64,000 nucleotides of DNA from NCBI RefSeq assembly GCF_002278035.1, contig NZ_CP022604.1:744001-808000 (forward strand), in the 5' to 3' direction. Source of the stretch: Ochrobactrum quorumnocens. GTDB taxonomy: Bacteria; Pseudomonadota; Alphaproteobacteria; Rhizobiales; Rhizobiaceae. The position numbers and the translations under genes are program-made. How positions within the stretch are numbered: the first letter of the stretch is position 1; the number at the start of each line of letters is the position of its first letter. This document shows positions 32,417 to 33,166 of the stretch, piece after piece. Below the pieces are notes generated by a model, which saw only the letters and a list, made by a program, of their open reading frames with translations, was not told the DNA's origin and ran no database searches.

Positions 32417-33166
32417 CTAATGAGAAGGATGCAGAGCGTCATTGAGATACATGCAGCTCAGCATGGTAAAGACATATGCCTGAATTATTGCCATCAGCAA
32501 TTCAAGTGCTGTCAATGCGACAGTCATGGCGAGAGGCATAATGGCCGATATTAATCCCAGCGAACCCAAACTGCCCAGTCCAACCACAAATCCAGCAAAT
32601 ACCTTCAGCGTGATGTGACCGGCGAGCATGACTGCAAACAGACGTACTGAATGGCTGATCGGACGTGAGATATAAGACATGAGTTCGATCGGAACGATAA
32701 TCGGCGCGAGCATCACCGGGACGCCTGCCGGCATGAACAAGCGGAAGAACTTGAAACCGTGGCGTAGCAGTCCGTAAATAGTGACGGTTAGAAATACGAG
32801 CATAGCCAGCGCGAACGTGACGATTATATGGCTTGTTACCGTGAAGGCATAAGGAAACATGCCGATGAGGTTGGCCACAAGAATAAACATGAAAAGCGAG
32901 AACACCAACGGGAAGAATTTCATTCCGTGTTCACCTGCATTTTCACGCACTGTCTTTGATACAAACTCGTAAAGCATTTCAGCTGATGATTGCCAGCGAC
33001 CTGGTACGACCTTACCTCGGCGCGAGGCGAGAAAAAGGAAGCCTGCAGCAACTGTCACTGTCAGCAGCATGTAAAGTGCGGAATTCGTGAAAACAATCTG
33101 CTGGCCACCCACTGTGCCAAGCTCGACGATGGGTCGGATCGCAAATTGTTCTATAGGCCCAGCCAT
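32417..33166 (-). CDS. atpB: Orphan F0 ATP synthase subunit a (atpB paralogue candidate)
   Basis: Proton-channel stator subunit, 249 aa with five to six hydrophobic helices. The essential Arg (E. coli aArg210) is kept in SHSVRLFAVMLAGH, but the Asn four residues on (aAsn214, usually RLFANM in alphaproteobacteria) is Val. The helix-5 Glu (TALELLMAIIQAYVF) and Gln are kept. The usual neighbours atpI, atpE and atpF/F' are absent; instead the gene follows a guanidine-II riboswitch and precedes gdx. So it is probably a second, guanidine-inducible subunit a; the usual F0 operon would lie elsewhere. GGAGGG stands six bases before the ATG. Confidence 0.85.
   Translation of the reverse strand: MAGPIEQFAIRPIVELGTVGGQQIVFTNSALYMLLTVTVAAGFLFLASRRGKVVPGRWQSSAEMLYEFVSKTVRENAGEHGMKFFPLVFSLFMFILVANLIGMFPYAFTVTSHIIVTFALAMLVFLTVTIYGLLRHGFKFFRLFMPAGVPVMLAPIIVPIELMSYISRPISHSVRLFAVMLAGHITLKVFAGFVVGLGSLGSLGLISAIMPLAMTVALTALELLMAIIQAYVFTMLSCMYLNDALHPSH

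Follow-up and report, generated by a model that had tools for sequence, protein, structure and literature searches.

Riboswitches that sense cations are known in front of ATP synthase genes—Na+-I riboswitches precede genes of Na+-driven ATP synthases, either whole complexes or components of the Na+ motor (PMC9971707). Guanidine-II riboswitches have a regulon of their own, composed of Gdx/SugE exporters and guanidine degradation, with the aptamer just upstream of the gene. Duplicated ATP synthase parts have also been described: the N-type ATPase brings a second subunit a into a genome. In Podospora, paralogous c subunits occur in one organism (PMC4956034). Here we describe a 64,000-nucleotide stretch of Ochrobactrum quorumnocens DNA (contig NZ_CP022604.1, positions 744,001 to 808,000; hereafter the window) in which an atpB gene, encoding subunit a of the F0 sector of ATP synthase, is not part of the atp operon but follows a Guanidine-II riboswitch and adjoins a gene of the SugE/Gdx type. 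We refer to this gene and its relatives as orphans, and to the copies in F0 operons as housekeeping copies. The identity of the orphan, its link to the riboswitch, and a residue change beside its stator arginine (Arg) are firm.

The Na+-I riboswitches are the nearest precedent that we have seen (PMC9971707): they too place a cation-sensing riboswitch on ATP synthase parts, but the orphan case concerns a single subunit, a guanidinium signal, and the c-ring of the host. The window resembles the known Guanidine-II regulon in its upstream aptamer and its SugE/Gdx-type neighbor; in contrast, the output gene of the orphan's riboswitch is an energy-conversion subunit. The Podospora paralogs differ in being eukaryotic and of subunit c, in a source whose title and opening abstract lines mention neither riboswitches nor guanidine (PMC4956034). 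Membership in an alternative (N-type) ATPase was rejected—the orphan scores 78 bits against a cut-off of 302 for the corresponding subunit a family (TIGR03306, altF1_A), and the genome has a single subunit c gene, in the housekeeping operon. No companion N-ATPase subunit was found beside the orphan, subunit c being the only one searched for genome-wide. The orphans form a real class of riboswitch-associated subunit a that is unremarked as far as we have searched; in the openly licensed literature searched, we found no description of a guanidine riboswitch controlling an ATP synthase subunit (the validation paper of the riboswitch class and supplementary gene tables lay outside that search).

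An additional subunit a gene

The window gene is an intact F0 subunit a gene for a protein of 249 amino acids, with an ATG start and no interruption. Its product matches PF00119 at 226.8 bits (cut-off 33.9) and the family "F0F1 ATP synthase subunit A" (NF004482) at 369.2 bits (cut-off 225). Neither atpI, atpE nor atpF adjoins it, as judged by reading the neighbors and by Pfam and NCBI family matches; instead, it is surrounded by genes for a SugE-type small multidrug resistance (SMR) protein, a MerR-type regulator, and a metallo-beta-lactamase (MBL)-fold hydrolase. A preliminary description made from the sequence had called the gene a full-length orphan subunit a without its usual partners, and the family matches and neighbor reading bear this out.

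That description had also proposed looking for a second atpB in an F0 operon. Such a gene is present elsewhere in the genome (G000:C3:430844-431581, plus strand), is 61% identical to the orphan, and is flanked by matches to PF09527 (AtpI type), PF00137 (subunit c) and PF00430 (b/b'), that is, in the order atpI-B-E-F. The orphan is therefore not the only atpB, nor a housekeeping gene in an odd place. Only one subunit c gene above the Pfam cut-off was found in the genome, within the housekeeping operon, so the orphan, if it works in F0, must use the ordinary c-ring. The pairing recurs: 49 of the 50 genomes reached via orphan loci have an orphan plus one housekeeping copy at an expectation value (E) of 1e-30, counting one (G474) whose orphan is in two pieces; the remaining genome (G481) has a broken orphan, and no further subunit a copy passes that threshold.

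The link to Guanidine-II riboswitches

We scanned genomes representing 84,980 species for relatives, using two peptide patterns only, and kept the best 80 of the 169 obtained; 60 of these are orphan-type and 20 housekeeping-type. With Rfam's own model, a Guanidine-II riboswitch lies on the same strand within 300 nucleotides upstream of all 50 orphans examined (50 of the 60 loci; E up to 0.01, with 17 of 100 sites below the gathering score), whereas none of the 49 housekeeping copies from these genomes has one in the 2 kb before it. The aptamer is within 30 nucleotides of the orphan in 23 cases and at 100–300 nucleotides in 27. A second model (R1), built here from 19 riboswitches of orphan loci, matches upstream of every orphan for which that DNA is available (59 of 59, L110 being cut off) and at none of the 20 housekeeping-type loci; in another set it separates 22 of 22 orphans from 0 of 34 housekeeping copies, a partly circular result because the set includes R1's training sequences.

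As a control, we took 66 Guanidine-II sites from 299 genomes sampled across the phylum and inspected about 1.5 kb to each side (one shortened by a contig end). A subunit a gene was near none of them; an SMR/SugE-like gene was near 41 (one by a weak match) and neither gene near 25. The association of riboswitch and orphan exceeds chance. In the window itself, both Guanidine-II sites are only narrowly above the Rfam gathering score (Table 1), and the R1 match at the orphan's aptamer is partly circular, since that aptamer is among the training sequences; the aptamer ends 15 nucleotides before the ATG of the orphan.

The tie between the orphan and guanidinium suggested by the preliminary description is thus carried by a Guanidine-II riboswitch of the orphan's own, kept across many genera, and the orphan copies of other genomes do sit behind guanidine riboswitches (50 of 50 with the Rfam model, 59 of 59 with R1). 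The opposite outcome that it had envisaged, orthologs in ordinary F0 operons, was not seen: none of the 60 orphan loci is F0-operon-like, and no other F0 genes were seen near the orphans in the loci whose neighbors were listed.

The exporter is a less constant companion. Within up to 5 kb on each side of the 60 orphans, a SugE match lies downstream in 33 and none is found in 27. Of the sugE-bearing loci, 30 carry an R1 match, in some cases a weak one (E up to 0.9), immediately ahead of sugE; in the other three (L087, L098 and L109) sugE follows the orphan at once and lacks its own riboswitch. The idea that the orphan is made together with the exporter fits the 33 loci and fails in the other 27. 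Because no exporter gene is near those 27 orphans, the conserved unit is the riboswitch plus subunit a, and a riboswitch serving sugE alone was rejected on the same count. Neighbors vary between genera in the loci whose neighbors were listed.

Residues and fold

We aligned 64 orphans (62 distinct proteins) with 54 housekeeping copies, assigning E. coli numbers by counting from aR210 and aQ252; four broken or cut copies (L061, L064, L065 and L110) were left out, and their fragments also read VRLFAVM. At the position of E. coli aN214, all 64 orphans have valine (Val) and all 54 housekeeping copies asparagine (Asn); Val also stands there in all 60 orphan loci of the species scan. In the window protein the stator Arg is R175 and the aN214 equivalent is V179, within VRLFAVM—the kept Arg and replaced adjoining Asn noticed in the preliminary description therefore characterize the whole group. 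Two further positions differ, namely position 225 (E. coli 248), which is Met in 64 of 64 orphans but Val or Ile in every one of the 54 housekeeping copies, and position 228 (E. coli 251), which is Ile in 62 of 64 versus Leu in 53 of 54. His172 is shared by all orphans, but by 19 of 54 housekeeping copies too. At the aN214 position the Val codons are GTC (35), GTG (23), GTA (4) and GTT (2); since all four are in use, selection seems to act on the residue. Invariance by itself is not rare, with 76 of 249 columns invariant among the orphans.

In other respects the orphan resembles housekeeping AtpB (PF00119, NF004482), sharing its length, its fold, and the remaining tested residues of the proton path. 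All 118 sequences agree at the positions of aE196, aS199, aR210, aE219 (where they have His), aH245 (where they have Glu) and aQ252, and the window orphan retains R175, E161, S164, H184, E222 and Q229. The predicted structure of the orphan has a mean predicted local distance difference test score (pLDDT) of 74.2 and a predicted template modeling (TM) score (pTM) of 0.66. All 50 fold matches among those listed are ATP synthase entries, the best being 6b2z (TM-score 0.84), and in five of five PDB alignments an Asn lies opposite the orphan's Val.

This retention bears on the suggestion that the orphan could be an ion channel independent of ATP synthase or, more broadly, a guanidinium channel or exporter built on the subunit a fold. 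Such a role would suit a gene that stands outside the F0 operon and often beside an exporter gene. Yet subunit a is not known to work except against a c-ring, the gene is under purifying selection (see below), and the six tested proton-path residues besides aN214 are unchanged in 64 of 64 orphans; because all of these are retained, we regard an independent channel as very unlikely.

The changed site has been probed by mutation in F0 studies. Beside the guanidinium group of aR210, aN214 and aQ252 are described as the residues from which, where the input channel ends, the proton passes to the carboxylate of the c-ring (PMC8754430, PMC9447477). The mutant aN214L still makes synthase-direction steps and has the pKa values of both half-channels moved towards alkaline (PMC8754430), with the strongest effect, among five changes tested, on the pH dependence of transient dwells (PMC8754430, PMC9447477). 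Changes at aN214 and other channel residues lower ATP synthase activity and proton pumping, and Asn, although usual, is not strictly required: the position is naturally Gly or hydrophobic in Toxoplasma gondii and Thermus thermophilus (PMC8754430). One could read the lowered activities as a sign that the orphan is an inhibitory or decoy subunit, which would enter F0 and slow or block the motor under guanidine stress, for example to stop ATP hydrolysis as the membrane potential falls; however, the aN214L change leaves synthase-direction stepping in place (PMC8754430), and the retention of the other tested proton-path residues exceeds the needs of a plug, so that we consider this unlikely.

Distribution, phylogeny and selection

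Orphan relatives are spread over many genera of Hyphomicrobiales. Judged by record title, the orphan-type loci belong to Brucella, Ochrobactrum, Falsochrobactrum, Pseudochrobactrum, Rhizobium, Ensifer, Mycoplana, Mesorhizobium, Pseudaminobacter, Aquamicrobium, Aminobacter, Nitratireductor, Phyllobacterium, Kaistia, Afipia, Devosia and Reyranella, together with records named at higher rank only; Ensifer adhaerens is among the carriers. A further orphan lies on a 477-kb Phyllobacterium plasmid; it is 72% identical, reads VRLFAVM, and bears the plain annotation F0F1 ATP synthase subunit A. In an order sample of 397 genomes, orphan-type copies were found in six, one of them the window's own genome, among matches at E 1e-95. 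In a class sample of 385 genomes only the window's own genome passed E 1e-94, so that no orphan was found beyond the order at this threshold, at which weaker relatives could be missed.

Within the window's genus, taken as Brucella in the sense that includes Ochrobactrum, 18 of 35 genomes surveyed keep the gene, 15 of them full-length and unbroken. Of the other three, G002 has a 5' end that is broken, while G001 and G006 are poorly assembled genomes in which the orphan shows frame breaks and the housekeeping gene is in pieces too.

A quick tree separates the orphans from the housekeeping copies by a branch with a support of 97 in the Shimodaira-Hasegawa-like approximate likelihood ratio test (SH-aLRT); the tree has no outgroup, and the orphans are a clade if the root falls among the housekeeping copies. 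The phylogeny of both copies called for in the preliminary description therefore sets them apart. Four orphans (L098, L109, L111 and L099) are placed by orphans of other families, which suggests horizontal transfer. The median ratio of nonsynonymous to synonymous substitution rates (dN/dS) is 0.054 for the orphan (26 of 91 Brucella-group pairs, dS 0.03-1.5), 0.033 for the housekeeping gene (28 of 28 pairs), and 0.22 for wider orphan pairs (27 of 28); these ratios point to strong purifying selection on the orphan.

A proposed guanidinium-inducible stator subunit

The reading that we favor, with a probability of roughly 60%, is that the orphan is a substitute for the subunit a of the F0 stator, induced by guanidinium and working on the ordinary c-ring. 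As guanidinium builds up, the Guanidine-II leader would turn on translation of this second subunit a, which would displace the housekeeping subunit in newly built (or exchanging) F1F0, while c-ring and b/b' stalk would be the ordinary ones. In the refitted motor, the stator Arg and the remaining tested proton path would be unchanged, with Val for Asn at the proton entry by the Arg, and Met and Ile near the entry Gln. Response to the ligand, assembly into F1F0 and a benefit to the cell are parts of this proposal that we infer; the likeliest benefit would be a motor that goes on running, or no longer misfires, in the presence of guanidinium and during its export by Gdx against protons.

What kind of benefit this might be—guanidinium resistance, shifted proton affinity or tuning of the membrane potential—can be argued in more than one way. 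Guanidinium is, in free form, the very group that the stator Arg bears on its side chain at the core of the F0 motor. Our first choice is that Val takes away a polar amide that could help to hold guanidinium by the Arg and the c-ring carboxylate. The orphan would then be a dedicated subunit a in which the change from Asn to Val keeps guanidinium from being held at that site, that is, a ligand-matched, riboswitch-controlled F0 isoform, a version of the proposal that we hold only tentatively. The main rival is a shift in proton affinity or coupling, in which an alternative subunit a would alter proton passage through F0 (slip, leak or hydrolysis-driven pumping), and would either lower the potential that draws the permanent cation guanidinium into the cell or handle the protons admitted by Gdx. 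Gdx swaps one guanidinium for two protons (PMC12186494), aN214L shifts pKa values (PMC8754430), and a cation exchanger gene (PF01699) with its own Guanidine-II riboswitch lies just upstream of the orphan in five loci, all of which would suit such tuning; the exchanger is present in 5 of the 60 orphan loci only, and we judge this rival improbable.

Several observations weigh against an inducible replacement subunit. In the literature searched, no report was found of free guanidine inhibiting bacterial F0; the nearest cases are biguanides acting on the mitochondrial ATP synthase, which affect hydrolysis more than synthesis, two of them inhibiting hydrolysis only (PMC4148174). Folding of the window leader is partly consistent with switching, and the model is incomplete: in the free leader the Shine-Dalgarno sequence and AUG are mostly paired, and forcing P1 and P2 raises the predicted unpaired probability of the start codon from 0.26 to 0.68, but that of the Shine-Dalgarno sequence is 0.2 in both states. 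A clean on-off model was not obtained from folding. In addition, the orphan is dispensable, because in five genomes of the genus (G023, G015, G024, G011 and G019; loci L206-L210, respectively) the gene is reduced to remnants, although both flanking riboswitches and sugE are still there, and just 15 of 35 genomes have it full-length and unbroken. The remnant in G024 was found by eye rather than by tblastn; the end points of the five loss scars look different.

Such losses could be expected if the orphan were a passenger, an atpB copy that had strayed behind the riboswitch of sugE and lacked any role with guanidine. This is already contradicted by the orphan's own riboswitch in 50 of 50 cases, by the 27 of 60 loci with no exporter near, by neighborhoods that differ, and by purifying selection, and we give it hardly any weight.

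A guanidinium-inducible replacement subunit would mean that many soil and plant bacteria refit their ATP-making motor as guanidine builds up and, if the swap is real, that signal-controlled subunit exchange takes place in the ATP synthase stator. In the orphans, nature provides a change from Asn to Val, widely conserved, at a site otherwise probed by mutation (PMC8754430), and a matched natural pair of subunits with which one can test what that Asn does and how cations close to the stator Arg act. A distinct class is thus hidden among the genes that bear the plain label "F0F1 ATP synthase subunit A".

The window locus, leaders and neighbors

The features of the window locus are collected in Table 1.

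Table 1. Features of the orphan atpB locus in the window, with the evidence for each.
Feature	Position	Strand	Evidence
SugE/Gdx-type SMR exporter, 105 amino acids	32024..32341	-	PF00893; NF008512 128.7 bits, cut-off 126
Second Guanidine-II riboswitch, sugE/gdx leader	32359..32403	-	RF01068 33.1 bits, gathering score 32
Orphan F0 subunit a, Val179 at E. coli aN214	32417..33166	-	PF00119, NF004482, alignment, fold
Leader from aptamer to ATG, GGAG...CTCC hairpin at the ribosome-binding site	33167..33181	-	Sequence and folding
Guanidine-II (mini-ykkC) riboswitch aptamer, orphan gene leader	33182..33225	-	RF01068 33.4 bits, gathering score 32; R1 match

The leaders of the orphans fall into different forms. 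In leaders like that of L069, the 3' arm of P2 looks, by eye, complementary to the ribosome-binding region. Long leaders, with 107-229 nucleotides from riboswitch to orphan, are found in 27 loci (L068, L073-L076, L079, L082, L083, L086, L087, L089, L092, L094, L096, L099, L101-L108 and L113-L116); these often contain short open reading frames (ORFs), some with a TGATG overlap at the orphan start, and translational coupling through a leader peptide is perhaps involved. A conserved small protein in this spacer was rejected, since ORF length and frame vary and none looked conserved in 18 of the 27 loci. One long leader holds, immediately after the riboswitch and ahead of the orphan, a membrane-type ORF of 56 amino acids (L099:4437-4607), with no Pfam match and no relative in other orphan loci.

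The PF01699 cation exchanger genes (about 384 amino acids) with their own Guanidine-II riboswitch lie upstream of the orphan in L074, L075, L076, L094 and L099, and the exchanger is a candidate new member of the guanidine regulon.

In the window, the divergent neighbor at 33365-34342 (plus strand) encodes an MBL-fold hydrolase with a twin-arginine translocation (Tat)-type signal; it resembles AidB-type lactonases, below the cut-off (126 of 360 bits). About 4 kb from the orphan, at 37205-37525 (minus strand), lies a gene for a small membrane protein of the YnfA/UPF0060 family (129.1 bits, cut-off 114), next to which the Rfam scan of the window gave no Guanidine-II match. Lastly, five loci (L002, L006, L009, L010 and L013) have sub-threshold matches to the "Brucella sRNA" (small RNA) families CI27, CI153 and CI408, some positioned between the orphan and sugE; these matches may represent an interspersed repeat rather than distinct sRNA genes.
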